Position numbers and translations under genes: made by a program. A stretch of DNA of 36,339 bases, taken from Coriobacteriia bacterium (GTDB lineage Bacteria; Actinomycetota; Coriobacteriia; Anaerosomatales; PHET01). Within the stretch, counting starts at the first letter, position 1, and every line of letters starts with the position of its first letter. The notes beneath the pieces were generated by a model. It did no database searches and was not told the DNA's origin. It saw only the letters and a program-made list of their open reading frames with translations. The stretch covers positions 1-36,339 of the forward strand of contig WRDS01000008.1 in NCBI GenBank assembly GCA_009779675.1, in the 5' to 3' direction. Below, piece after piece: positions 2,402-16,373 of this stretch.

Positions 2402-2575
2402 CCTTAACGGATCCAAGCGTACAGGCCCTGCCTGCGGCCCAGAGTGTCATACTATCAGCTGAACCGTTTTGTGGGCAGACAACGGGCAACTCCATGGGCA
2501 TTGCGTGGATGTTGGGACAAACGATGGGCGGCCTCATGGGCATTGGCCGTGCAGACAATATGGCATGGGGGACTG

Positions 2576-5329
2576 ATGAGCGACTCCCGTAAAAACAACA
2601 GTGCTGGGATGCCTCGGCGGAAAAGGCCTGCCAAGCAACCGCGCCAAGGCGTGCCCCGAAGCGCATCGGGGGCAAAGCCCAAAAGCGCCAGCCAACGTCC
2701 GCCGAGCAGAAAGCGCCAACCGGCCGCCTCGCAAAGGCCGCAGCAGAGGCCGCCCCAACAAACAGGTCAGCGGGCGGGTCAGCAAGCGGGTCGGCGGGTG
2801 CCTCGGCAGGCAGGCCAGCAGGCGGCTCGGCAACCGGGAGTCAAAAGGAGGAGGCCGGGGCCGGGCGGCGGCGGAGCGGGACCCAGGTCTGTCGCAGCGC
2901 GCACGGCGCGGAGGCGTCGTGCCCTCAAGGCCACCCTGCTCGTTATCCTGCTCGTCTTTGTCGCGCTGGCAGCGACCGGCTGCGCGGTCTACGCCTCCAT
3001 CTCATCAGGCCTTCCCGACCCCGACATCCGCAAGGCACGCGGCAGGGACCAGTCGACGATCATCATGGACCGGGACGGGAAGCAGATCGCCCGCCTGTTC
3101 GCCGAGCAGAACCGCCAGGACGTCCCCCTAGACAAGATGCCCAAACACCTGCGCGACGCGGTCATCGCCACCGAGGACAAGCGTTTCTACGCGCACGAGG
3201 GCGTCGACCTGATGGGCATCACGCGGGCGCTTGCCGTCGACATCGCCAAGCGGGACAAGGCCCAGGGCGGCTCGACCATAACGCAGCAATACGTCAAGCA
3301 GGCATTTGTCTCCTCTGACCGGACACTCAAGCGCAAGATCTCCGAGGCGCTGCTCGCGCTCAAGGTCGAGAAGCGCTACTCGAAGGACGAGATCCTCGAG
3401 TTGTACCTGAACACGATCTACTTCGGGCATGGCGCGTATGGGGTCGAGGCCGCCTCGCGGGCGTATTTCGGGAAGAGCGTCGAGAAGCTCAGCGTGGCCG
3501 AGGCGGCGATGATCGCGGGGGTGATCAAATCACCTGGCAGGTACTCGCCATACCTCAACCCAGAGAACGCGCTCGATCGGCGCAACACTGTCCTAAAACA
3601 GATGCGCGACCAGGACTTCATCGATCAGGCGACCTGGCAGGAGGCGCGTGAGACGCCTGTCGAGGTCACGGGGCTGAGCCCGCTTGCAAACACCGCCCCC
3701 TACTTCCTTGAGTGGGTCAAGGAGGGGCTGGTCGGCGAGTACGGGAAAGACGAGGTCTACCGTGGCGGCCTGCTCGTCCGGACCACTTTGGACCGCTCCA
3801 TGCAGGAGGCCGCTGAGAAGGCCGTTGCCGATGTGCTGAACCGCGAAGGCGATCCCTCGGCAGCACTTGTCGCCATACAGCCGAGCACCGGCGAAGTGCT
3901 CGCGATGGTCGGTGGCCTCGACTTCAAGACCCAGCAGTTCAACGTTGCCGTCCAGGGCAAACGCCAGCCTGGCTCGGCATTCAAGCCCTTTGTGCTTGCA
4001 ACCGCGCTGGCCGAGGGCGTGAGCCCTGAGAAGACCTTCCCGTCTGCGGCACGCAGCTTTGATGTCAATGGCAAGCCGTGGAAGGTGACGGGGAGCAGCG
4101 CTGGCACGAACGGGATGATGCGCCTGCGGCAGGCCACCGAGCTTTCGGTGAACTCCGTGTATGCGCAGCTGATCTTGGACGTGGGTGCCGACAATGTGGT
4201 GCGCACCGGAGAAAAACTCGGGCTGCACAAGGGCATCACGCCTGTTCCTGCGATCGCGCTTGGCGGGCTTGAGGACGGCGTCTCCCCCCTTGAGATGGCC
4301 CAGGCTTACGCGACCCTTGCGAACGGCGGCGTGCGGACCACCCCGTATGGCGTGTCAACGGTGAAGCTGCCTGACGCTACGGTCTTGGGCGAGACGAAGC
4401 CGAGCGCGGAAAAGGCCATCGACCCGGGCGTGGCATACCTCACGACAGACATACTGCGTGGCGTGATAGAGCGCGGGACCGGCACCTCGGCGAAGATCGG
4501 CAGGCAGGCGGCGGGCAAGACGGGCACCACCCAGCAGTATCGCGATGCCTGGTTCGTGGGGTACACGCCCGACCTGGTGTGCGCGGTCTGGGTTGGCTAC
4601 CCCGACTCCCAGCGCGAGATGAAGGGTGTCCACGGCGTGAACGTGAGCGGCGGCACGCTGCCGGCGGCCATATGGGGCCGCTTCATGAAGGATGCCCTCA
4701 AGGACACTCCGAAAACGGAGTTCAAGCAGCCAAAAGGGCTCACGCATATCGAGGTCTGCTCGGAGAGCGGCCTGAGTGCCACCGAGTTCTGCCCGACGCG
4801 CATGAGCGCCCTTGTCCTGGCGAACAACCTCCCGCCAGCCTGTGAGGCCCACATGGAATCGGCCGAGGTGACGGTCCCGAACCTTGTCGGGATGGCGAAA
4901 GCGGCCGCTGTGAGCGCCCTTGAGGAGGCCGGGCTCAAGGCGAAGACCGTCGACCAGGCGGCAGCTGCGGACGCAGAGCCAGGAACCGTCATCTCGCAAG
5001 ACCCCAAGGCGGGCACAAAGGTCGAAGCGGGCTCGACGGTCACTGTCACGGTCGCTTCCTCCGCGGGAGGGTCGGCGAAAAGCCCGACACCGACATTCTA
5101 CCTACCGGTAAAGGCCGCTGTGGGAGACCCGATAAAGCTCGTCGCAGGCTCATCCGGCGGCGGTGGGTCGGCGGCCACCTATTACTGGGAGTTTGGCGAC
5201 GGCACGGATGCCACCGGGCAAAAGGTCTCCCACGCATGGGACGCACCAGGCACGTATGAGGTGACGCTTTGGGTGACCGAGAGCAACGGGGCACGCGGCT
5301 CGCTCACCAAGAAGATCGCGATCAAGTAG
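2576..5329 (+). CDS. Class A penicillin-binding protein with PASTA and PKD domains
   Basis: Bifunctional peptidoglycan synthase: it polymerises lipid II and cross-links the stem peptides outside the membrane. From the N-terminus (917 aa): a Pro/Gln/Arg-rich cytoplasmic tail of about 110 residues; one membrane helix (about 118-143); a GT51 glycosyltransferase with catalytic Glu in ATEDKRF (about 198) and GGSTITQQ; a transpeptidase with SAFK (about 468), SVN (about 523) and KTGT (about 647); one PASTA repeat (about 762-828); and a PKD-like beta domain (about 842-915) with WEFGDG and a GTYEVTLWV strand. The ORF track starts 44 codons earlier at a GTG, but the ATG at 2576 follows a GGGGGA ribosome site. 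A terminal PKD domain is uncommon in PBPs. The gene stands alone and is followed by a gap and the accessory island. Confidence 0.93.
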   Translation: MSDSRKNNSAGMPRRKRPAKQPRQGVPRSASGAKPKSASQRPPSRKRQPAASQRPQQRPPQQTGQRAGQQAGRRVPRQAGQQAARQPGVKRRRPGPGGGGAGPRSVAARTARRRRALKATLLVILLVFVALAATGCAVYASISSGLPDPDIRKARGRDQSTIIMDRDGKQIARLFAEQNRQDVPLDKMPKHLRDAVIATEDKRFYAHEGVDLMGITRALAVDIAKRDKAQGGSTITQQYVKQAFVSSDRTLKRKISEALLALKVEKRYSKDEILELYLNTIYFGHGAYGVEAASRAYFGKSVEKLSVAEAAMIAGVIKSPGRYSPYLNPENALDRRNTVLKQMRDQDFIDQATWQEARETPVEVTGLSPLANTAPYFLEWVKEGLVGEYGKDEVYRGGLLVRTTLDRSMQEAAEKAVADVLNREGDPSAALVAIQPSTGEVLAMVGGLDFKTQQFNVAVQGKRQPGSAFKPFVLATALAEGVSPEKTFPSAARSFDVNGKPWKVTGSSAGTNGMMRLRQATELSVNSVYAQLILDVGADNVVRTGEKLGLHKGITPVPAIALGGLEDGVSPLEMAQAYATLANGGVRTTPYGVSTVKLPDATVLGETKPSAEKAIDPGVAYLTTDILRGVIERGTGTSAKIGRQAAGKTGTTQQYRDAWFVGYTPDLVCAVWVGYPDSQREMKGVHGVNVSGGTLPAAIWGRFMKDALKDTPKTEFKQPKGLTHIEVCSESGLSATEFCPTRMSALVLANNLPPACEAHMESAEVTVPNLVGMAKAAAVSALEEAGLKAKTVDQAAAADAEPGTVISQDPKAGTKVEAGSTVTVTVASSAGGSAKSPTPTFYLPVKAAVGDPIKLVAGSSGGGGSAATYYWEFGDGTDATGQKVSHAWDAPGTYEVTLWVTESNGARGSLTKKIAIK

Positions 5330-5720
5330 GCGCGGCTGGGGCTGGCGGGCAGGCTGCAGCCTCCTGAGTGGGGGTTGCGGCCTAAACGATAGGTCGCCGA
5401 GTCATAACTGGCCTCTTGCGCTTACAGCGCATGTGCTGAAACGCACCCTGTCGAAGTGCGCACGGCAGTCGCCGAACATGCGACCCAGCGACGGAACGTG
5501 CCTTTTGCTTGTGGCAGTCAGCTGCATGAGGGTTTATCTTGTGCACAGTACGCTATCAGGGAAGATGCTGAGTTTCCCGGATCCATGCCCCTAACAAGGA
5601 CAGAATCGCGAAGAATGTCCCGCTCGCGAGATAGAACAGTATGAACAACATTAAGCCCGTGACCCAGCTCCTAGCAGCTCGTCTTGCCTAGCGTCACAAA
5701 AAACGGATACTGCTCACACG
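5330..5720. other. Gene-poor gap before the accessory island
   Basis: No convincing conserved gene is visible here. It holds a 12-bp palindrome AGGCTGCAGCCT just after the PBP stop (no T-tract, so not an obvious terminator), a GCGC-rich patch near 5420-5445, and one short hydrophobic ORF on the minus strand that is listed separately. The 62-aa plus-strand ORF at 5456 has no recognisable features. Confidence 0.5.
5556..5651 (-). CDS. Possible 31-aa hydrophobic peptide (not in ORF track)
   Basis: An ATG on the minus strand at 5651 opens a 31-aa frame made almost entirely of one predicted membrane helix (starting MLFILFYLASGTFF), with a short polar tail IRETQHLP. The frame is also open a little upstream, to a TAG. 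No good ribosome site precedes the ATG. It could be a small membrane protein, a type I toxin-like peptide or a fragment of a lost membrane gene at the edge of the island. Family unknown. Chance hydrophobicity in a U-rich strand cannot be excluded. Confidence 0.2.
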   Translation of the reverse strand: MLFILFYLASGTFFAILSLLGAWIRETQHLP

Positions 5721-5735
5721 CCCTTTCGATATACC

Positions 5736-5971
5736 CTCTAAGAAAAGCTCTGCCATATATTGTTGGGCAAGGACTTGAAAAAAGAAGAGCTTGGTTATGT
5801 TTGTGGAGGTACGCACATGCACCGTCAGCAAATTCGCTCGCGGCAAGAACATCACCGTCAACGTGCTTCAAAAAAATCTGCAAGTCGTTGGGGTGCGACA
5901 TCGGCAACATTATGGAGATTCTGCCGGACGGAGAGAACGGCACGACGGCACGAAGAGGAATTGACACATGA
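5736..5971 (+). pseudogene. Frameshifted XRE-family (HTH_26-like) transcriptional regulator
   Basis: Three reading frames together spell a short Cro/CI-type regulator of about 75 aa. One frame gives KLCHILLGKDLKKEEL (from 5745), another gives TVSKFARGKNITVNVLQK (up to about 5875), and a third gives KICKSLGCDIGNIMEILPDG to the stop at 5971. The last block is the typical C-terminal signature of small HTH_26/XRE proteins. The shifts fall near an AAAA run before 5745, between about 5785 and 5820, and at a seven-A run at 5870-5876. The stop overlaps the next start as ATGA, so this was once the first gene of the restriction-like operon, probably its controller. Sequencing error in A-runs could explain some but probably not all three shifts. 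Confidence 0.6.
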
Positions 5972-6888
5972 ATGAAATGCGACAAGCGCACGAGAAGATA
6001 GCAGCCTCGTCATCCGATGTGCTGGAGAACGACATCGGAATAAGTATGCCTCGCATACTTGAAATTCTGTTGTTGGATAGGACTACTTCAACACTGAACA
6101 CCCCCAAGAATATCATCTGGGCGAACGGCAACTATAAGTATTACGACGCAACTGTTTATGCCCCGACGGCACAAATACTGCCGGAGCTTATAACTAACAA
6201 GAGAGGCTCTTTGATAAGGCCGAGGGCATTGAAGGCGACGGCATTACAAAAAGAGCGCACGCGGAAACAGGCCGAGGTATTCACGCCCATTTGGGTCGTG
6301 AAAAAGCAAAACGATGCAGTAGACGAGGGATACAAGAACGATGACTTGGAGACCTACACCCGCCGCAAGTGGCTTGAAATCACCTGTGGCGAAGCCCCCT
6401 ACATGGCTACCCGCTACGACATGGAGACTGGCGAGCTTGTGCCGATTGCCGAGCGTGTCGGCTTCGTTGATAGAAAGCTCGCACGGATAAACAACGAGAT
6501 AACCGACAAAGCCGAGTGGCAGCGGTTGGTGGAGCTTGCCTACAAGTCCTGCTACGGCTTCGAGTGGAACGGCGATTCGCTGCTGCTCGCCCGTGAGAAC
6601 CTGCTCTACACTTACCGTGACTACTGCCTTACTAAGTGGAGCAGCGAGCCATTATACGGCCTGCTCGAGGAAATCGCGGTTATCATCAGCTACAACGTCT
6701 TCCAGATGGACGGATTGAAATACACCATCCCGCTCACAGAGAAAAGGGAGAAGGTCGAGGTAACACAACCGTCGTTGTTCGACATAGACGAGCCGAAAGA
6801 GGAATGGCGAATCACACCCGGAAAGCGGGTCAGGATTATGAATTGGGACACGAGCAAAATGGAGTATTTCGACAGAGAGACAAAATGA
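5968..6888 (+). CDS. N6-adenine methyltransferase-like protein of a restriction system
   Basis: 306 aa; start ATG overlaps the stop of the regulator remnant (ATGA). The middle resembles the front half of gamma-class N6-adenine DNA methyltransferases: a motif X-like AEVFTPIWVVKKQ (about residue 92), a motif I-like EITCGEAPY (about 137) and a GFEWNGDSLLLARENLL block (about 198) that resembles the motif II/III region. No NPPY/NPPF catalytic motif IV is visible, so it may bind S-adenosylmethionine or DNA without methylating alone. Similar small proteins, as I recall, are annotated as restriction endonuclease subunit M next to GIY-YIG/helicase genes. Its stop overlaps the next start (ATGA), pointing to coupled translation and a complex with that protein. 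GC is clearly below that of the flanking housekeeping genes. Confidence 0.7.
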   Translation: MNEMRQAHEKIAASSSDVLENDIGISMPRILEILLLDRTTSTLNTPKNIIWANGNYKYYDATVYAPTAQILPELITNKRGSLIRPRALKATALQKERTRKQAEVFTPIWVVKKQNDAVDEGYKNDDLETYTRRKWLEITCGEAPYMATRYDMETGELVPIAERVGFVDRKLARINNEITDKAEWQRLVELAYKSCYGFEWNGDSLLLARENLLYTYRDYCLTKWSSEPLYGLLEEIAVIISYNVFQMDGLKYTIPLTEKREKVEVTQPSLFDIDEPKEEWRITPGKRVRIMNWDTSKMEYFDRETK

Positions 6889-9800
6889 GCATGAATAACA
6901 ATACGGTCATCAGAACCACGAAGATCATTTACCCGCAAATCTACGCCTATATTCTACCCACATTTGAGCCGAAGGACGGTTGGGTAAAAATTGGCTATAC
7001 AGAGCGGCAAGACGTTGACAGTCGTATCAAGGAGCAGACGCATACAGCGGCGGTCAATTTGGAATACTCCAAGCTGTGGTCAGAACCTGCCAAGTTCACG
7101 GGTTCCGATGTATGGTTCAAGGACAAGCAACTCCACACCTACCTACGTAAGTTCAAGGGGATTGAGCAGGAGCCGAACACGGAGTGGTTCTACTATGACG
7201 GAACACCGCAACAAGCGCATGATGACTTCGATGATTTTAGAAGTAACTGCTTGGGCAACTCCGTTCAGGCGGGCAGCCAACTTGAATACCAGCTTCGCCA
7301 CGAGCAAGAACTGGCCGTGGAAAGGACACTTGCATATGCAAAAGCACACCCTAACGGCGAATTTTTGTGGAACGCAAAGCCTCGCTTCGGTAAAACGCTG
7401 ACTACCTATGACTTAGCCCGCCGGCTAGATGCGATGAAAGTTTTGGTCGTTACAAATCGTCCAGCTATCGCCAACTCATGGCACGACGATTTCGAGACCT
7501 TCATCGCTTGGCAGACAAACTACTTCTTTATCTCTACCGCGGATTCATTGAAAGAGAGACCCGTCCTTACGAGGGAGCAGTATTTAGACCAGAGCATTGG
7601 CAAGCCCCAAGATTCCGGGTTCATCGCTTTCATTTCCTTACAGGACTTGAAAGGGTCGCTCTATTTCGGCGGCGGCTTCAATAAACTCGAATGGGTCAAA
7701 GGTCTGAAATGGGATTTACTTGTCATCGACGAAGCACACGAAGGCGTTGACACCTTCAAGACCGATGTTGCCTTCAACAATATAAAATGCGACTTCACTT
7801 TGCATTTATCAGGCACCCCGTTCCAAGCGGTTGCCTCTGGTAGATTCGCCGAGGAACAGATATTCAACTGGACGTATGCAGACGAGCAAGACGCAAAAGT
7901 CGCATGGTCGGACGCAGAGCAAAACAACCCTTATGAGAGACTGCCGCGCTTGAACCTGTTCTCATATCAGATGAGCCAGATGATTACCGACGAGGTAAAC
8001 AAGGGAGCCAATATCGAAGGCAAGGATGTAGACTTCGCCTTCGACTTGAACGAATTTTTCGAGACGAACGACAGCGGCAATTTCGTCCATGAGGCCGAAG
8101 TGAGCAAGTGGCTTGACACGCTCTCTGAGAACGAGAAGTACCCATTCTCCACCAAGGAACTGCGCGACGAGTTGAAACACACTTTTTGGTTGCTCAATCG
8201 TGTTGCAAGCGCAAAGGCTCTTGCCAAGCTCTTGAAGCAGCACCCCGTCTTTGAGAACTACGAAGTCATCTTGGCAGCGGGCGACGGCAGGATGGAAGAC
8301 GACCAGACCGCCAACGAAAAATCGTTCGACAGGGTTCGCACAGCGATAAAGAAGCATGACAAGACCATCACGCTTTCCGTCGGACAGCTCACAACGGGCG
8401 TGACCGTCCCAGAGTGGTCAGCAGTCCTCATGCTCTCCAACGTGAAGTCGCCGAGCCTTTATATGCAAGCGGCTTTCCGGGTGCAGAACCCATGGGACTA
8501 CGAGGTAGATGGCGAGAGGCGCCAGAAGCAGAATGCTTACGTCTTTGACTTCGCGCCGGAACGCACACTCATCATCTATGACGAGTTCGCAAACAACCTG
8601 AACAGCAAGACTGTATCTGGCGGCGGCACCACGATTGACCGCGAGGACAACATCAAGACGCTGCTCAACTTCTTCCCTGTCATCGCCGAGGATGACGAGG
8701 GCAAGATGGTGGAGCTTGACGTTCGGCAGGTTCTGACCATCCCGAAAGCATTAAAGGCAAGAGAAGTTGTCAGGCGCGGTTTCATGTCGAATCTCTTGTT
8801 CCAGAATATCTCCGGCATTTTCGCCTCAACGGAAGCACGCGAAATCTTGGAGCAGCTCAACCCCGTCGATGTGGGTAAGGTCACGCCACGTCAAACGGAC
8901 GATACCATCGACACACAAGGCGTTCAGGTTGATGGCTACGGTGAAGTGGTCGTGCCGCCGCCTATGGTTCTAAAAGAGACCGAGGCTCGTTTTGGTGAGA
9001 AGGTCTATGCCGATATTGCCGGAGCTGTACAACAGGCAGCAGAACAATCTGTGCCTAACCTAACCAGCACGGTCGCTACGGCTTTCACTCAAAATGTGCT
9101 TGACGCCGTGAAAGAGCTTGCGAGGGACAACGCTATCACGATGGCGCAAGCGGAGCAGGTGATAAAGCAAAATGCAAACGTCATCGCCCGCGAGGTTGAG
9201 ATCGTACAGAAGCAAGCTGAAATCAAACAAGCCGAGGCAAAGATTGAGTTCGAGCGTCAGGTCGCCGCCGCCAAAAGCGACAAGACGGCTGTCGCCGAGG
9301 CGAAGGCGAAATTCGAGGCAACGACGCAGCAGATACAGGACGATTTCAAGAAAGGCGTTACCTTAAAGGTCGAGGAGAAGACCAAGAAACTTACACAGAA
9401 ATCGACCGAATCCATCTTGAAAGAAGCTGAGGAAAAGAAAAAGGCGACTGTCGAGGATGATGTCCGCGCCAGACTGCGCGGCTTCGCCCGCACCATTCCG
9501 TCGTTCCTAATGGCATACGGCACAGTTGAGACAACGCTGAAAAACTTCGACGAAAACATCAAGGACGAGGTTTTCAAAGAGGTGACCGGCATAACGCTTG
9601 ACCAGTTCCGTACCCTGCGGGACACCTATGAGTTCTTCGATGGCGTTGTCTTCGATGAGTCCATACAAGAGTTCCTGCACAAGAAGGAGCAGCTCGCAGA
9701 CTACTTTGACGACAGCCAAACCGAGAACATATTCGACTACATCCCGCCGCAGAAGACCAATCAGATTTTCACGCCGAAGAAGGTTGTGAAGCTGATGATC

Positions 9801-11126
9801 GACAAGCTGGAAGAAGAAAACCCCAATATATTCGCGGACAAGGACAAGACCTTTGCAGATCTGTATGTCAAATCAGGCTTATACCTGACAGAAATCGTCA
9901 CACGTTTGCACACGGGATTGGCCGAGCAGATACCTGATGAGAAGCAGAGGATAAAGCACATCCTCGAAAATCAGATATTCGGATTCGCGCCGAGCGAGAT
10001 TATCTACAACATCGCCAAGAACTACGTCTATGGTGGGTTTGCTGATATTGACAGCTCGCACCTCGAGTGCCGCGACTTAACCGATACAGCTAAAAGCGGA
10101 GGAGATTCAAAAATGAAATTTGATGTTGTTGTTGGCAACCCACCTTATCAGGAAAGCGGCGAGGCAAGGGACGAGCCTGTTTATCACTATTTCTATGACC
10201 TTGCCGAAAAAGCAGCACAGAGATATTGCTTAATTTCACCCGCGCGATTCTTATTCAATGCAGGGCAAACGCCAAAGACATGGAATGCCAAAATGCTTAA
10301 TGATGAGCATTTGAAAGTCGTGTATTACGAGCAGAATAGCGCCAGCGTCTTTGCCAATACTGACATAAAGGGTGGGGTAACAATCATCTACCGAGATGAT
10401 GAACAGGATTATGGAAGCATCGGCGTTTTCACACACTACGATGAGCTGAACTCTATCGTTAGCAAAGTCGCCAGTGTAAGGGAAGTGGATTTTTCTTCTA
10501 TTGTTCAGCCACAAGGAATATATCGCTTTTCGGAGCGATTCTTCTTAGATTTTCCACAGGCCGAAGCCATGCAAGGCAAAGGTACAAAGAGCAAAATTGT
10601 CTCAAAGTCATTCTCGCAGATGGATTTTGTATTCCATACGTCGAAAATGGCTGATGATGACATAAGCATGCTTGGCTTAGACGGCGGCAAGCGAGAGTAT
10701 AAGTGGATTTCATCGAAGTATCTTGCCCTGCCGGAATCCTTTGAAAAGTACCGCGTGATAATCGCTGAAACCAACAATACAGGCGTTCTCGGCGAGACTT
10801 TGAGTAGCCCTCTCATTGGCGTTCCTCATATCGCACACACCGACACTTTCTTAACTGTAGGTGCTTTCGATACAAAAATGGAAGCTGAGGCGGTTCTGAA
10901 ATATATCAAGACCAAATTTACCCGCGTGTTGCTGGGGGTTCTGAAAATCACGCAGCATAACTCACGCTCCACTTGGGCAAAAGTCCCCCTGCAAGACTAT
11001 ACGCCGCAGAGCGACATCGACTGGACAAAGCCTGTCGCAGACATCGACAAGCAGCTCTACACTAAATACGGATTGAACAAAAAAGAAATCTCCTTCATCG
11101 AAGAAAAAGTCACGGCAATGGAGTGA
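6885..11126 (+). CDS. GIY-YIG nuclease / SF2 helicase / Eco57I-type methyltransferase fusion
   Basis: 1413-aa multidomain protein that looks like a single-chain restriction-modification enzyme. Domains in order: a GIY-YIG (T5orf172/MUG113-like) nuclease at about 11-100 with IYAYIL, VKIGYTER, DSRIKEQ and EWFYY; a superfamily 2 translocase with Walker A PRFGKT (about 168), DEAH (about 284) and SGTP (about 309), and a second RecA lobe with QLTTGVTVPEW (about 503); a lysine/glutamate-rich coiled-coil coupler (about 760-860); a gamma-class methyltransferase with FTPKKVV (about 962), a degenerate motif I DLYVKSGLYLTE (about 990) and intact NPPY (about 1085); then a probable target-recognition region to the end. 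The layout parallels Type ISP enzymes (LlaGI type), with GIY-YIG in place of the Mrr-like nuclease. The ORF track begins 83 codons early; the ATG at 6885 overlaps the upstream stop as ATGA. Likely acquired by transfer. Confidence 0.85.
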   Translation: MSMNNNTVIRTTKIIYPQIYAYILPTFEPKDGWVKIGYTERQDVDSRIKEQTHTAAVNLEYSKLWSEPAKFTGSDVWFKDKQLHTYLRKFKGIEQEPNTEWFYYDGTPQQAHDDFDDFRSNCLGNSVQAGSQLEYQLRHEQELAVERTLAYAKAHPNGEFLWNAKPRFGKTLTTYDLARRLDAMKVLVVTNRPAIANSWHDDFETFIAWQTNYFFISTADSLKERPVLTREQYLDQSIGKPQDSGFIAFISLQDLKGSLYFGGGFNKLEWVKGLKWDLLVIDEAHEGVDTFKTDVAFNNIKCDFTLHLSGTPFQAVASGRFAEEQIFNWTYADEQDAKVAWSDAEQNNPYERLPRLNLFSYQMSQMITDEVNKGANIEGKDVDFAFDLNEFFETNDSGNFVHEAEVSKWLDTLSENEKYPFSTKELRDELKHTFWLLNRVASAKALAKLLKQHPVFENYEVILAAGDGRMEDDQTANEKSFDRVRTAIKKHDKTITLSVGQLTTGVTVPEWSAVLMLSNVKSPSLYMQAAFRVQNPWDYEVDGERRQKQNAYVFDFAPERTLIIYDEFANNLNSKTVSGGGTTIDREDNIKTLLNFFPVIAEDDEGKMVELDVRQVLTIPKALKAREVVRRGFMSNLLFQNISGIFASTEAREILEQLNPVDVGKVTPRQTDDTIDTQGVQVDGYGEVVVPPPMVLKETEARFGEKVYADIAGAVQQAAEQSVPNLTSTVATAFTQNVLDAVKELARDNAITMAQAEQVIKQNANVIAREVEIVQKQAEIKQAEAKIEFERQVAAAKSDKTAVAEAKAKFEATTQQIQDDFKKGVTLKVEEKTKKLTQKSTESILKEAEEKKKATVEDDVRARLRGFARTIPSFLMAYGTVETTLKNFDENIKDEVFKEVTGITLDQFRTLRDTYEFFDGVVFDESIQEFLHKKEQLADYFDDSQTENIFDYIPPQKTNQIFTPKKVVKLMIDKLEEENPNIFADKDKTFADLYVKSGLYLTEIVTRLHTGLAEQIPDEKQRIKHILENQIFGFAPSEIIYNIAKNYVYGGFADIDSSHLECRDLTDTAKSGGDSKMKFDVVVGNPPYQESGEARDEPVYHYFYDLAEKAAQRYCLISPARFLFNAGQTPKTWNAKMLNDEHLKVVYYEQNSASVFANTDIKGGVTIIYRDDEQDYGSIGVFTHYDELNSIVSKVASVREVDFSSIVQPQGIYRFSERFFLDFPQAEAMQGKGTKSKIVSKSFSQMDFVFHTSKMADDDISMLGLDGGKREYKWISSKYLALPESFEKYRVIIAETNNTGVLGETLSSPLIGVPHIAHTDTFLTVGAFDTKMEAEAVLKYIKTKFTRVLLGVLKITQHNSRSTWAKVPLQDYTPQSDIDWTKPVADIDKQLYTKYGLNKKEISFIEEKVTAME

Positions 11127-11169
11127 GTGGGGTAACGTCCCCATTAATCTTCAATGTCTTTGAGGAAGT

Positions 11170-11300
11170 CGCCTTCGTGGCACGCTCGGGAACGGCTAAA
11201 AGGAGCGTGCGGCCTAAAGGGACCAGACCGTGCAGTCTGGGAGCGAAGCCCAGGGACACACGAACCGTACGATTCAAGTGCATCTCAATCGTACGATTGG
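11170..11300. repeat. Hairpin and palindrome cluster at the 3' end of the island
   Basis: Within 130 nt there are: GCACGCTC/GAGCGTGC, an 8-bp perfect inverted repeat (11180-11187, 11203-11210); CCAGAC/GTCTGG (11223-11228, 11235-11240); CTGGG/CCCAG around AGCGAAG (11237-11253); and the 14-bp perfect palindrome CAATCGTACGATTG (11286-11299). The core CGTACGATT also occurs at 11266, 24 bp before. No T-tract follows, so these are not plain terminators. The cluster sits exactly between the last island gene and the U32 gene, a position that could suit a transcription end, a structured RNA or a recombination site. Confidence 0.55.
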
Positions 11301-11356
11301 GGCTCATGATCGAGCCGTCGGCGAAAAGGAACCGCGTCTACCAGGTCAGCTACAGC

Positions 11357-13945
11357 TCACGCAAGTCCGCGGAAGAAGTGCCCTGTGGTGGTCTCGCCTG
11401 CCTGGGGCGGGGCTGCTCGGCCAGCGAGCGCCAGTTTGACCGCCGAGCACACACGTGAGACCTCGGCAGCTGCTGTCGGGGCATCCAGCATCTCCAGGTC
11501 CAGGCGCACCGCATCGACGCCCGCCTCTATGAGCGCAGGCAGTGCACGCGTCGCATCAAGCGTCACCGAGTTGTACACACGGGTGCGCCCGAGCGGATCA
11601 GGCATGATCGGAAAGACGTACTCCTTGCGGTCTTTGATCGCATACGCGGGCGTGCCGCGGGCGGGCGTGCCGCGTCCTGGTATGGTGTGTTTTTGCGCGT
11701 CGCGCCCCTCGTCGTGGGCGTGTGCGCCGCGCCCTTCTCCGACGGCCGCTATATCGTGCTCGGTCACCATCACCTCTTGCCTGCCCGCCACGGCGACCCC
11801 GACCGGCAGGCCTGCAGACTCGGCGATCTCGCACACCTGGGCAAGCGACAGCTCCGGCGAGAGCCAGACGAACGCCGCCCCCATGTCACCGGCCTGCGCC
11901 ACCGAGCACGCGTTCGTCACATTAAGCGACCAGTGCGCCTGCACGCTGCAGCCTTCCTCGGCAAGTCGCGTGAGCGCGCCGAGCGACCCGGCAACCGCCT
12001 TCCCACTCCGCCGTGAGGGGGCGAGCAGCATCTCGGCCTCGGCATCGTGGCAGACGCGGGACACGACAGGGACGATGCCTTCCGGGACTTCCGGGGCCCC
12101 CAACGCCCCCACCGTCCCAGGCGCTCCGAACTGCTTGGCCGCTCCAGGAGTCCTGGCCACCGGGCGTGCCTCCCCGAGCGCCCATGACTCGACATGCACC
12201 TCGTCCGCACCGGCGGCAAGACATGCGCGGGCGCACTTGAGATCCCTGGCCACGGCGACCACGCGGGGTGCCTCCCTGCGCGGCCGCTGCGGTGTTTCCG
12301 GTCGCTGCAGTGTTTCCGGTCGCTGCGGCACCTCCGCCCGCGGCGCTTGTTGCCCGCGCTCCTCCCACGGGCGCAAAACCTCCTGCTCGAGCGCAAGGAC
12401 CGCCGCCTGCCGGACCCGATGCAGCTGCGAGAACCCCACCCCTGCCCCAGGCGAGAGCGCGCAGTCGAACTCGGCCATCTCATATGCCGTGCTGCCGAGG
12501 CGCCCCACATGCTCGGCGACCTCCTCGGCGGTCACCGCCTTGGTCCTGGCAGGCTCGACCACCTCGCCAAAGGCGGCCCCCCTCCTGCCGGAAGCATCGG
12601 TGACCGCAACCTCGAGCGGCTTGCCGATCACCACCGAGGCGAAGACCGACACCGGCATCCGTCGGCCTCCCGGCTGCGCGTAGAGCCGCTCGGCGGCGGC
12701 GGCTAAGGCCGCATTCCGCACGCGGAAGACGCGGTCGCCGACTGATGCGGGCCTCTCGGCGAGTATGGAGACCTGCGCGCCGCCGGGCGCGGACGAGACG
12801 GTCTTTTGCCCGAACCGCATCGGCCCGATCTTTTGCGCGTGCCTGCCGCGGGAGGTCCATACCTCGATGGTGTCGCCGGCATCCACCGCTTTCTCAAGCT
12901 TGAGCGTGGCCCTTTCGGGTGACGTTGCGATGATGCGGCCCACCCGCACGCCGCGGTTGTTCGGTCGGCTGTAGCCGATGAGCCCGCTCCCACGCTCGCC
13001 GGTAAGGTGGCCTGTGGTGAACCCGCGCGAGAATGCCTCGGCAAGCACCGACCGCTCGCCCTCGCGCACCTCCCAGCTGCCGGAGGAAAGCCAGGTGGGC
13101 AGGTCGCGGGCCGCCCGGTCGAGCGCGCCGCGATAGATGCCGGTGACGAGCCCGACATACTCGGGGCTCTTCATCCTGCCCTCGATCTTGAGCGAGTCCA
13201 CGCCGGTTGCCACGAGCTCTGGGAGCACGTCGATGCCCGCGAGGTCTTTGGGCGAGAGCAGGTATTCGCCCGGTGCCTCGATGCCGCCGCCTCTGGCGTC
13301 CACCAGGCGATAGGGCAGCCTGCAGGGCTGGGCGCACATCCCGCGGTTCGCCGAGCGGCCGCCGGCCATCGACGAGAGCAGGCACTGCCCCGAATAGCAG
13401 ACGCAGATCGCGCCATGGACAAACGCCTCTGTCTCCACCCCGGCCTCATGGGCTACCGAGGTGAGCGAGCGTATCTCGGCTAGGGAGAGCTCGCGCGAGA
13501 AGGTTATCCGCGACGCGCCGAGCGAGGCCAGCGCCCGAACGGTGTCGGAGGAGTGAGCGTTCACCTGCGTGGAGATGTGCATGCGGATGCCGGGCAGCTC
13601 GCGGGCAAGGAGCCGCATGAGCCCCAGGTCTTGCACGATGACCGCGTCGATGCCTGCGCTCCAGGCCTTCTCGATAAGGCCGAGCACCACGGGCTCCTCC
13701 GACGGCAGGATGACGATGTTTGTCGTCAGGTAGACCTTGGTGCCGCGCAGGTGGGCGAAGCGGCAGGCCTCGGCGAGCGTCTCGACGGTGAAGTTCTTCG
13801 CCCCCCGCCGGGCGTTGAAGCCCTCCACGCCCAGGTACACCGCATCGGCACCTGCGGCCACCGCCGCCCGGAGGGACTCGGGAGCCCCTGCGGGCGCAAG
13901 CAGCTCGGGCCTGGTGTCGCGGCTCTGTGCTCGGTCTGTTGTCAC
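11357..13945 (-). CDS. U32 family peptidase / RlhA-like RNA hydroxylation protein with DUF3656
   Basis: About 862 aa. The N-terminal third is a U32 TIM-barrel domain: LLAPAGAPESLRAAVAAGAD and VYLGVEGFNARRGA at the start, then the cysteine block CVCYSGQCLLS…RGMCAQPCR, where U32 proteins such as RlhA and TrhP bind an iron-sulfur cluster. RlhA hydroxylates 23S rRNA C2501 and TrhP acts on tRNA wobble uridine; which applies here is unknown. A DUF3656-like middle follows, then a low-complexity linker with repeats of QRPET (about residue 555), and a second barrel-like C-terminal part (VEAGVDAVRLDLEML near the end). The track starts at a TTG at 13969, but AGGAGGG lies downstream of that codon, so GTG at 13945 is preferred. 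Transcribed alone, against its neighbours. Confidence 0.85.
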   Translation of the reverse strand: MTTDRAQSRDTRPELLAPAGAPESLRAAVAAGADAVYLGVEGFNARRGAKNFTVETLAEACRFAHLRGTKVYLTTNIVILPSEEPVVLGLIEKAWSAGIDAVIVQDLGLMRLLARELPGIRMHISTQVNAHSSDTVRALASLGASRITFSRELSLAEIRSLTSVAHEAGVETEAFVHGAICVCYSGQCLLSSMAGGRSANRGMCAQPCRLPYRLVDARGGGIEAPGEYLLSPKDLAGIDVLPELVATGVDSLKIEGRMKSPEYVGLVTGIYRGALDRAARDLPTWLSSGSWEVREGERSVLAEAFSRGFTTGHLTGERGSGLIGYSRPNNRGVRVGRIIATSPERATLKLEKAVDAGDTIEVWTSRGRHAQKIGPMRFGQKTVSSAPGGAQVSILAERPASVGDRVFRVRNAALAAAAERLYAQPGGRRMPVSVFASVVIGKPLEVAVTDASGRRGAAFGEVVEPARTKAVTAEEVAEHVGRLGSTAYEMAEFDCALSPGAGVGFSQLHRVRQAAVLALEQEVLRPWEERGQQAPRAEVPQRPETLQRPETPQRPRREAPRVVAVARDLKCARACLAAGADEVHVESWALGEARPVARTPGAAKQFGAPGTVGALGAPEVPEGIVPVVSRVCHDAEAEMLLAPSRRSGKAVAGSLGALTRLAEEGCSVQAHWSLNVTNACSVAQAGDMGAAFVWLSPELSLAQVCEIAESAGLPVGVAVAGRQEVMVTEHDIAAVGEGRGAHAHDEGRDAQKHTIPGRGTPARGTPAYAIKDRKEYVFPIMPDPLGRTRVYNSVTLDATRALPALIEAGVDAVRLDLEMLDAPTAAAEVSRVCSAVKLALAGRAAPPQAGETTTGHFFRGLA

Positions 13946-14117: not shown

Positions 14118-14264
14118 ATTGTGGGATATTACGGCAAGACGTTACGACATCAAGGCATCGTGGCAGAACGGCAAGAGGCATCCCAGCAAAGGGCGTCGTG
14201 GCGGGGTAATATGTGTGGGAACACGACATCCGCCGCCAAGTAACCGCCCGTGGTTCGGAGAGAC

Positions 14265-16373
14265 ATGTCATCTCATCGTAAACGCACCAAACAACGGCGC
14301 AAGCGCAGCCAGAGGAAGATCATCGCCCTAGAGATCACCGGCGCTTTGGTCTTAAGCGTGCTGCTCGTCATCCTCATGAGCGCCTCAGCGGTAGCAGCAA
14401 CGGTCCAGCACTGGCTCAAAGACCTCCCCGACGCAGGTGCCCCGGGGGCGTTCGACGTTGCCGAGGCGACCGAGATCTACTCGGCTGACAACAAGCTCCT
14501 TGCGCGGCTGTACCTGGAGAACCGCACGGTGGTGCCCCTCTCGAAGATCTCGACCGACCTTGCAGACGCGATCGTCGCGATCGAGGACGAGCGCTTCTAC
14601 CAGCATAACGGGATCGATATCCATGGGCTTGGCCGGGCCGTCGTCGTCAACCTGCGCGATGGCTTCGGCGAGGAGGGCGCCTCGACGATCACCCAGCAAT
14701 ACGTCCGCAACACCATCCTGCTCGACGAGGCGACCGAGATCTCGCTCGGCAGGAAAGTGCGCGAGGCGTACCTGGCCATGGAACTCGAGAAGCGCTGCGA
14801 AAAAGAGGAGATCCTCGAGCTGTATCTGAACGCCATATATTTCGGCGCGGGCGCCCATGGAGCGGAGGCGGCATCTAAGACGTACTTCTCCAAGCATGCG
14901 GACGAGCTCACGCTGGCGGAGGCCGCGCTGCTCGCGGGACTTCCGCAGCAGCCCCTGCGCCTGGACCCGTTCCAGTACCCGGACCGCGCCGTTGCGCGGC
15001 GCAACCTTGTGCTCGGCTCGATGCTCAAGAACGGTTACATCACCCAGGCCGAGCACGATGAGGCGCGTGACACCCCGCTGGAGCTTGAGAAGACCGCGGA
15101 TCCCGAGGACGGCATCTATCGTGCGCACTTCTATGTCGCGCATGTGAAGAAGCTGCTTCAGTCAGAGTTTGGCAAAGACATCGTGTTTGGCGGCGGGCTG
15201 CGCGTGTACACGACCCTCGACACCCGGTTGCAGGGGCTGGCCGAGGACGCGGTAAAGAGTCGGCTGCCCAGTGGTCCTGAGGCCGCGCTCGTCTCGCTCG
15301 ATCCCAGCAACGGCTATGTGAAAGCACTCGTTGGAGGCCGGGACTATAGTACGAACAAGTTCAACTTGGCCACGCAAGGACGCAGACAGCCGGGGTCGTC
15401 TTTCAAGACGTTTGCGCTTGTGACCGCCCTTGAGGAGGGCATGCCCCCCTCGTACATGATCGACGGCTCCTCCCCCGCCCTCATCCCCACCAGACCGAGG
15501 CCCTGGCGCGTATCGAACAGCGAGGGAAGCAGCCGCGGGGCGATGTCGCTGGATGCGGCCACCCGGGCATCGGTGAACACCGTTTACGCTCGGCTTTCCT
15601 GGGGGCTCGGTGCCGAGAAGATCGCGGCAACCGCAAACAAGATGGGCATCGAGAGCAAGCTGGAGCCCTATCCCTCGATAGCCCTCGGAGCCCAGAATGT
15701 CACCCCGCTTGAAATGGCCTCGGCTTACGGCACGCTCGCAACGAACGGCCTGCACGTCGATCCGGTATTCGTGACAAAGATCGTCGACTCAAGAGGGAAA
15801 ACGGTTTACACCAACCAGACCAAAGGGACTCAGGCCCTTGACCCTTCCGTCGCTTACGCGGCCACAAAGGTCTTGAAGGGCGTCATCACCGGTGGCACTG
15901 CGCGCCGAGCAGCGATAGGACGGCCAGCGGCCGGCAAGACCGGCACCAGCCAGAGCAACCGAGATGTCTGGTTTGTGGGCTACACGCCCCAGCTCGTCAC
16001 ATCAGTCTGGGTCGGCTACCCCACCGAGAGAACGATCATCGTGCGCGGCGCACGCGCTTTTGGCGGGACCGTGTGCGCTCCGATATGGGCCGCATTCATG
16101 CGCCCTGCCATGGCGGATATGCCGGTGAAAGACTTCCCCTCGCAACCCGCCCCCAAATACTCGTCCAAGCGCTTCAAAAACATCCCTTCAGGCAGTGTCG
16201 CACCTGACGACAAGGAACCGCCCATCAAAGACCCTCAACAACCAGCGCCCACTCCGCCAACGCAACAGCCGCCCACCCCACCGAAGCCGCCGACACCTAC
16301 CCCGCCAAAGCCGCCGAAGCCCGATCCCCCAGAGGAAGGCGGCGGGGGTGATCCGGCTACCCCGGACCCGTAG
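14265..16373 (+). CDS. Class A penicillin-binding protein with proline-rich tail
   Basis: 702-aa bifunctional peptidoglycan glycosyltransferase/transpeptidase. After a basic N-terminus (SSHRKRTKQRRKRSQRK) comes one membrane helix (about 19-45), then GT51 with catalytic Glu in AIEDERF (about 105), ASTITQQY and LELYLNAIYFG, then a transpeptidase with SSFK (about 378), SVN (about 435) and KTGT (about 557). The last 60 residues are a Pro/Thr/Lys tail of the PPTPPKPP type, which may span the wall. Unlike the PBP at 2576 it has no PASTA or PKD domain. The track starts at a GTG five codons earlier; ATG at 14265 has GGAGAG just upstream. A basic N-terminus of this kind may bind cytoplasmic partners, which is inference. 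Confidence 0.94.
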   Translation: MSSHRKRTKQRRKRSQRKIIALEITGALVLSVLLVILMSASAVAATVQHWLKDLPDAGAPGAFDVAEATEIYSADNKLLARLYLENRTVVPLSKISTDLADAIVAIEDERFYQHNGIDIHGLGRAVVVNLRDGFGEEGASTITQQYVRNTILLDEATEISLGRKVREAYLAMELEKRCEKEEILELYLNAIYFGAGAHGAEAASKTYFSKHADELTLAEAALLAGLPQQPLRLDPFQYPDRAVARRNLVLGSMLKNGYITQAEHDEARDTPLELEKTADPEDGIYRAHFYVAHVKKLLQSEFGKDIVFGGGLRVYTTLDTRLQGLAEDAVKSRLPSGPEAALVSLDPSNGYVKALVGGRDYSTNKFNLATQGRRQPGSSFKTFALVTALEEGMPPSYMIDGSSPALIPTRPRPWRVSNSEGSSRGAMSLDAATRASVNTVYARLSWGLGAEKIAATANKMGIESKLEPYPSIALGAQNVTPLEMASAYGTLATNGLHVDPVFVTKIVDSRGKTVYTNQTKGTQALDPSVAYAATKVLKGVITGGTARRAAIGRPAAGKTGTSQSNRDVWFVGYTPQLVTSVWVGYPTERTIIVRGARAFGGTVCAPIWAAFMRPAMADMPVKDFPSQPAPKYSSKRFKNIPSGSVAPDDKEPPIKDPQQPAPTPPTQQPPTPPKPPTPTPPKPPKPDPPEEGGGGDPATPDP

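Follow-up and report, generated by a model that had tools for sequence, protein, structure and literature searches.

Here, we present an analysis of a two-gene island in which an adenine methyltransferase appears to be distributed over two proteins. Based on sequence comparisons, we consider it probable, at roughly 0.6, that the island encodes an ATP-dependent restriction-modification system in which the methyltransferase is formed by a small protein (S) together with a catalytic half (C), while a second N-terminal half (N') ties C to a translocase-nuclease. According to this model, S would be the SAM-binding half of an N6-adenine methyltransferase; the large protein (L) would comprise a GIY-YIG nuclease, an SF2 translocase, a coupler, and N' as a degenerate second N-terminal half; and C would comprise the NPPY catalytic half and the target-recognition domain. 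More importantly, comparisons of relatives revealed that (i) C is a cassette that is swapped, with NPPY as the joint, among systems that are otherwise almost identical; and (ii) C relocates repeatedly between the genes for S and L.

The window, i.e., the whole 36,339-nucleotide stretch of DNA that was analyzed, is contig 8 in a 1.9 Mb genome. The two genes lie in a low-GC island (Table 1) that is flanked by core genes for tyrosyl-tRNA synthetase, class A penicillin-binding proteins, and a U32 peptidase; because the GC content of the island is below that of its surroundings and the island is positioned between core genes, its sequence indicates that it was acquired horizontally. The genes for the class A penicillin-binding proteins, two in number and one of them ending in PASTA and PKD domains, flank the region at 2444-5329 and 14250-16373. 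The reading frame of the 1413-aa chain is open throughout from its start ATG, which overlaps the TGA of the gene for the 306-aa protein (ATGA); an alternative ATG is present at 6891. A scan of genomes for relatives gave 80 loci, and further samples came from 14 viral contigs as well as from dozens of plasmids. Among the plasmids, one of Pediococcus pentosaceus has a gene pair that is about 65% (S) and 62% (L-C) identical to that of the window. The presence of homologous systems in all of these argues that the 1413-aa gene is not a chance open reading frame. The family is spread over Bacillota, including streptococci and enterococci, Actinomycetota, Pseudomonadota, Bacteroidota, and others.

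Table 1. Coordinates of the features of the system in the window
Feature	Residues	Position	Strand	Remarks
Low-GC island		5401..11400	none	44-55% GC versus mostly 60-70% around; core genes on each side
S subunit, 306 aa, predicted N-terminal half of adenine methyltransferase		5968..6888	+	PADLOC MTase_II PDLC03390 match; motifs
L-C subunit, 1413 aa		6885..11126	+	Translationally coupled to S by the ATGA overlap
GIY-YIG (T5orf172) nuclease domain	20-105	6942..7199	+	Pfam E 1.6e-4, above gathering threshold; GIY-YIG clan
SF2 ATPase/translocase	135-536	7287..8492	+	Walker A 163-171, DEAH 282-285, SGTP 309-312, motif VI R532
Charged, proline-free, probably helical coupler	735-860	9087..9464	+	Coiled coil not significant
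N', second methyltransferase N-half	955-1072	9747..10100	+	QIFTP; motif I DLYVKSGLYL, K996 at the first Gly position; beta2 end A1035, no acid
C half: NPPY (motif IV), remainder of the catalytic half, recognition domain	1077-1413	10113..11123	+	Portable, exchangeable module
NPPYQ, catalytic motif		10137..10151	+	In relatives, recurrent 5' breakpoint of C-module exchange

The initial annotation had read the 1413-aa chain as a GIY-YIG-type N-terminus, SF2 translocase motifs, a long coiled-coil coupler, and a gamma-class methyltransferase with NPPY and a C-terminal region, and most of this was borne out. In the T5orf172 domain identified by Pfam, Y20, K35, G37, T39, R47, H84, and E100 are 100% conserved among 75 aligned sequences and intact in the window; with its conserved Tyr, Arg, and Glu (Y20, R47, and E100), the large chain belongs, by its sequence, to the GIY-YIG nuclease superfamily. 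Similarly, Pfam matched ResIII to residues 135-313 (E 7e-13), and the Walker A motif and R532 are 100% conserved in the same 75 sequences and intact in the window copy. The coupler is proline-free, charged, and probably helical; however, its heptad periodicity was not above that of shuffled sequences, 24% of which reach the observed value, and a long coiled coil is therefore no more than plausible. The methyltransferase at the end of the chain is supported by both Pfam (N6_Mtase/Eco57I, residues 959-1156, E 4e-16; residues 955-1413 overall) and an AlphaFold model. Because motif X, motif I, and NPPY are present in that order on a Rossmann fold, it is a gamma-class N6-adenine methyltransferase, in which motif I of N' is degenerate (KSG). 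NPP is 100% conserved and Y1088 99% conserved among the 75 aligned sequences, both are intact in the window, and this NPPY-containing C is the only catalytic half in the window system.

The small 306-aa protein is half a METHYLTRANSFERASE. S contains motif X (EVFTP), motif I (LEITCGEAPY), and a beta2 strand (YGFE) and lacks NPPY; its chain ends where motif IV (NPPY) would come next. A Pfam search of S gave no match, while the PADLOC profile listed in Table 1 matched with an E value of 3.7e-69. Many relatives have a shorter S with a canonical motif I (LEPAAGEGAFL or LEPACGSGNFL), and profile alignment related the long and short forms with a probability of 99.2%. In addition, for a distant form (G042), Pfam gave matches to MmeI_Mtase and N6_Mtase in their SAM-binding part. 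E137, G141, and E199 are kept by S in 100% of rows and GxG is kept by short S; because GEAP replaces GxG in the window S, SAM binding by this protein stays putative. The initial annotation mentioned S as an extra small subunit. A second protein is indeed present, and its co-occurrence with the large chain was seen in essentially every intact homologous locus collected; however, a half-methyltransferase in all of these is not a generic extra subunit.

N' and S are homologous as judged by profile comparisons. N' aligned with short S in hhalign with a probability of 94% (E 1.4e-7), and, when run against 75 N' halves and 75 helicase controls, the S profile matched 69 of the former and none of the latter. 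In class I methyltransferases, SAM is normally held by the first motif I Gly and by an acidic residue that closes beta2. In N', this Gly is replaced by Lys in 100% of rows, also in distant relatives, in which the motif reads DPxCKSG or DPxTKSG, and the end of beta2 is Ala (96%) versus an acid in S (100%). Because the SAM-holding positions are kept in S and replaced in N', these residues suggest that SAM competence resides in S and that N' is a pseudo-half. Nevertheless, S and N' are each strongly conserved, arguing that both matter.

The gene arrangement varies among the 80 genome loci. C is fused to S beside a separate L gene in 26 loci; the window form, with C on the large chain, was found in 23 loci and in two more with S downstream; S, L, and C are separate genes in the order S, L, C in 13 loci and in the order S, C, L in nine; and a few others are cut or split. 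Thus, with 26 fusions to S and 22 free proteins, at least 48 of the 80 loci do not carry C on the large chain. Essentially every intact locus has S, N', and a single C: all parts (S, helicase, N', and C) are present in 74 of the 80, and the remainder are truncated, contain a split C, or run into the edge of a contig or of the retrieved stretch. At least eight changes of arrangement are required on the helicase tree, and 23 are needed on the C tree to explain the arrangement label. More distant relatives have a three-gene layout of S, N'-C, and GIY-YIG-helicase, and S adjoins the N'-C gene in all five such loci with full flanks. In the viral contigs, S, C, and N' are unbroken in 11 of 14, and one more has a broken large gene. 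On plasmids, the searches for the methyltransferase and for S gave largely the same records; for the single apparent exception examined (Variovorax), an unannotated adjoining S was recognized by its motifs.

Within this set, S, N', and the helicase vary in concert, while C does not follow. Pairwise identities of S, N', and the helicase covary with r values of 0.66-0.81 versus 0.24-0.34 for C. We then set each tree against the 32 well-supported helicase branches: 17 recur in the S tree, which conflicts with four; 13 recur in the N' tree, which conflicts with two; and one recurs in the C tree, which conflicts with 31. At the level of individual loci, the helicase, N', and S are 98, 97, and 93% identical between L119 and L122, while C is 28% identical; the corresponding values are 94, 100, 94, and 25% for L102 and L106 and 95, 92, 81, and 36% for L083 and L099. 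In all three pairs, which represent three different gene arrangements, NPPYQ is the point where identity ends, and in L083 and L099 identity returns over the final ~45 residues. S or its partner has been exchanged too: in locus L010 (7920-13129, on an Enterococcus faecium plasmid, listed with L009), S is 72% identical to that of the window, but the large protein, with a different and longer N-terminal region, is just 34% identical.

Several loci carry disruptions or additional genes. A sister system on contig 43 of the same genome (L006, 6000-17793) has a GIY-YIG-helicase of 960 aa (6696-10960, minus strand) that is 33% identical; it adjoins a RhuM-family gene and is broken, its methyltransferase C-terminus being reduced to a 134-aa remnant. 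In three relatives, single-base shifts break the S-C gene within C (L042 3359-3386, L043 2709-2730, and L044 5702-5885). We considered phase variation of C; however, each relative is hit at a different site, and the homopolymers at or close to these sites are just 4-6 bases long, and therefore decay or sequencing error fits as well. An IS256 element lies between S and a C without NPPY on a Bifidobacterium longum plasmid (L011 2571-3755), and another lies beside a truncated remnant of the system on pTEF3 of E. faecalis V583 (L149). In several streptococci, a 1-kb insert separates S-C from L; it is an Abi_2 gene (L085 7173-8123; same place in L089 and L093), which ruled out a silent C cassette. 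An AbiH gene is found between S-C and L in S. suis (L098 3191-4495). On plasmid pL8 of E. faecalis (L008), the system is carried together with the resistance genes optrA, erm(A), erm(B), and ant(9), and it may therefore be a plasmid-borne defence or stabiliser.

AlphaFold models support that either N-terminal half can complete C. The window N'-C (C-terminal 557 aa) was modeled as a methyltransferase with a recognition domain (pLDDT 88, pTM 0.80), and a natural S-C fusion of Streptococcus australis gave a pLDDT of 82.5 and a pTM of 0.74; in both models, which consist of covalent neighbors and are thus biased to cis pairing, class I methyltransferase strands lie on both sides of the joint. CamA was the best fold match of both N'-C and S-C, followed by PglX/BrxX, DrdV, MmeI, LlaBIII, and LlaGI, and this resemblance to whole adenine methyltransferases on both counts is the basis for the notion that either half may serve. 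From the fold, S and N' would bind C through one and the same face, such that a given C could accommodate just one of them at a time.

Because C is covalently beside N' in the window and the modeled N'-C is complete, C may instead work with N', leaving S in an accessory role. In this scenario, which we regard as rather unlikely, N'-C alone is the active methyltransferase, with the Lys of motif I still allowing SAM binding, and S is a dead partner for assembly or DNA binding, in the way that METTL14 is the catalytically dead partner of METTL3. The contiguity of N'-C and its complete fold agree with this, as does the perfect conservation of KSG, which argues that N' is functional in some way. 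However, the loci with C on S or free argue that contiguity of N' and C is dispensable, and it is S that keeps the motif I Gly and the beta2 acid that N' is missing.

Returning to the S plus C model, we suggest that the SAM pocket is provided by S and the catalytic motif by C, the two pairing in trans in the window and in cis in the S-C fusions, while N' as a SAM-incompetent copy of S would link C to the motor and nuclease. In Type ISP and Type I enzymes, which use other nucleases, unmodified sites trigger ATP-driven translocation and cleavage; by analogy, unmodified sites may here lead to ATP-driven translocation and cleavage by the GIY-YIG nuclease. C would recognize the target for both activities, and its exchange would re-target modification and restriction together. 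More tentatively, S and N' may compete for one C, such that S-C binds SAM and methylates, while N'-C on the motor-nuclease chain engages this same target in a SAM-free state and sets off restriction. If true, the choice between cutting and modifying would be a half-domain swap on a shared recognition module, and we know of no restriction-modification type that uses such a switch. The family offers a direct test of one recognition module serving both modification and restriction, and the conserved joint, which occurs in cis and in trans, may be a natural split-enzyme scaffold.

The domain order of the large chain, i.e., nuclease, helicase, coupler, methyltransferase, and recognition region, is that of the Type ISP enzymes LlaGI and LlaBIII (PDB 5FFJ and 4XQK), whose hallmark is directional ATP-driven translocation followed by cleavage once two enzymes converge. 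The order proposed in the initial annotation was found in Pfam and AlphaFold analyses, as was the T5orf172 nuclease in place of Mrr; its interpretation as a Type ISP variant with a swapped nuclease did not hold. That this is a Type ISP enzyme in which GIY-YIG replaces Mrr, plus an accessory subunit, is very improbable. Although the one-chain order is the same and LlaBIII and LlaGI are among the methyltransferase fold matches with a similar fold, CamA and PglX match better, the nuclease of LlaGI/LlaBIII is of the Mrr (PD-(D/E)XK) type, and the LlaGI/LlaBIII PDB chains gave no match to the window proteins (phmmer E≤1, profile E≤10). Moreover, LlaGI/LlaBIII are single proteins, while here the single chain is one among several arrangements of a split, rearranging methyltransferase, and a half-methyltransferase such as S is foreign to Type ISP. 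Because of the nuclease type, the absence of a sequence match in these searches, and the split chain, we do not file the system under Type ISP. Searches of solved structures by sequence identified no relative of L, S, or S-C. The best fold matches of N'-C and S-C, CamA and PglX/BrxX, are to our knowledge complete single-chain methyltransferases with neither a GIY-YIG nuclease partner nor a half-domain partner.

Type IIG enzymes combine nuclease and methyltransferase in one chain and cleave in a SAM-stimulated manner without ATP. The fusion is present here and PADLOC assigns the Type IIG label; however, the intact SF2 ATPase argues for ATP dependence. PADLOC represents the fused large chain by REase_MTase_IIG PDLC03626, S by MTase_II PDLC03390, and C by PDLC03375, keeping the three profiles as unlinked Type IIG and Type II enzymes and not recording the half-and-half relation. 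Such labels count the halves as separate methyltransferases and would mislead methylome assignments. The proposal that the system is possibly uncharacterized stands insofar as no matching description of the operon or of a split adenine methyltransferase was found in the open literature, with prior naming, e.g., in REBASE, possible, but close homologues, for which we likewise found no characterization, already carry labels: PADLOC uses "Type IIG" or "Type II methyltransferase," and NCBI uses "Eco57I restriction-modification methylase."

In content, the nearest characterized operon is DnmA-YeeB-YeeC of B. subtilis, with homologues in Vibrio crassostreae, which likewise combines an adenine methyltransferase, an SF2 protein, and a T5orf172 protein (PMC9973331). 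DnmA is reported to be a full-length MmeI-like methyltransferase that alone is sufficient for GACGAG, and it is encoded with the SF2 helicase YeeB and the T5orf172 protein YeeC (PMC9973331, PMC7261158). By description, the two systems are set apart: there, three separate proteins and no reported S half; here, SF2 and T5orf172 fused and the methyltransferase halved. The idea that the window system is a relic or orphan modification system that methylates without restricting is the least probable reading. In its favor, the B. subtilis locus methylates GACGAG and restricted neither phage nor DNA uptake in published tests (PMC9973331, PMC7261158), although deletion of the Vibrio homologues raised phage sensitivity (PMC9973331), and frameshifts or an insertion sequence disrupt C in several relatives. 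Against it, the residues of the nuclease and the ATPase do not vary among relatives and are intact in the window, and carriage on plasmids and proviruses together with the embedded Abi_2 and AbiH genes points, indirectly, to a role in defence.

For the exchanged unit, i.e., half a methyltransferase core that is severed at the catalytic motif and joined to one subunit or another, we found no case in the open literature, and the C cassette would represent a new natural means by which restriction specificity changes. The closest parallel is in Type I systems, in which specificity changes by "domain movement" and exchange of recognition modules re-targets both modification and restriction (PMC3077401, PMC3983042). 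There, HsdS or its recognition domains are exchanged; here, the exchanged unit starts at NPPY and takes half the methyltransferase core with it, and, unlike the Type I units, the exchanged C also changes the subunit to which it is attached.
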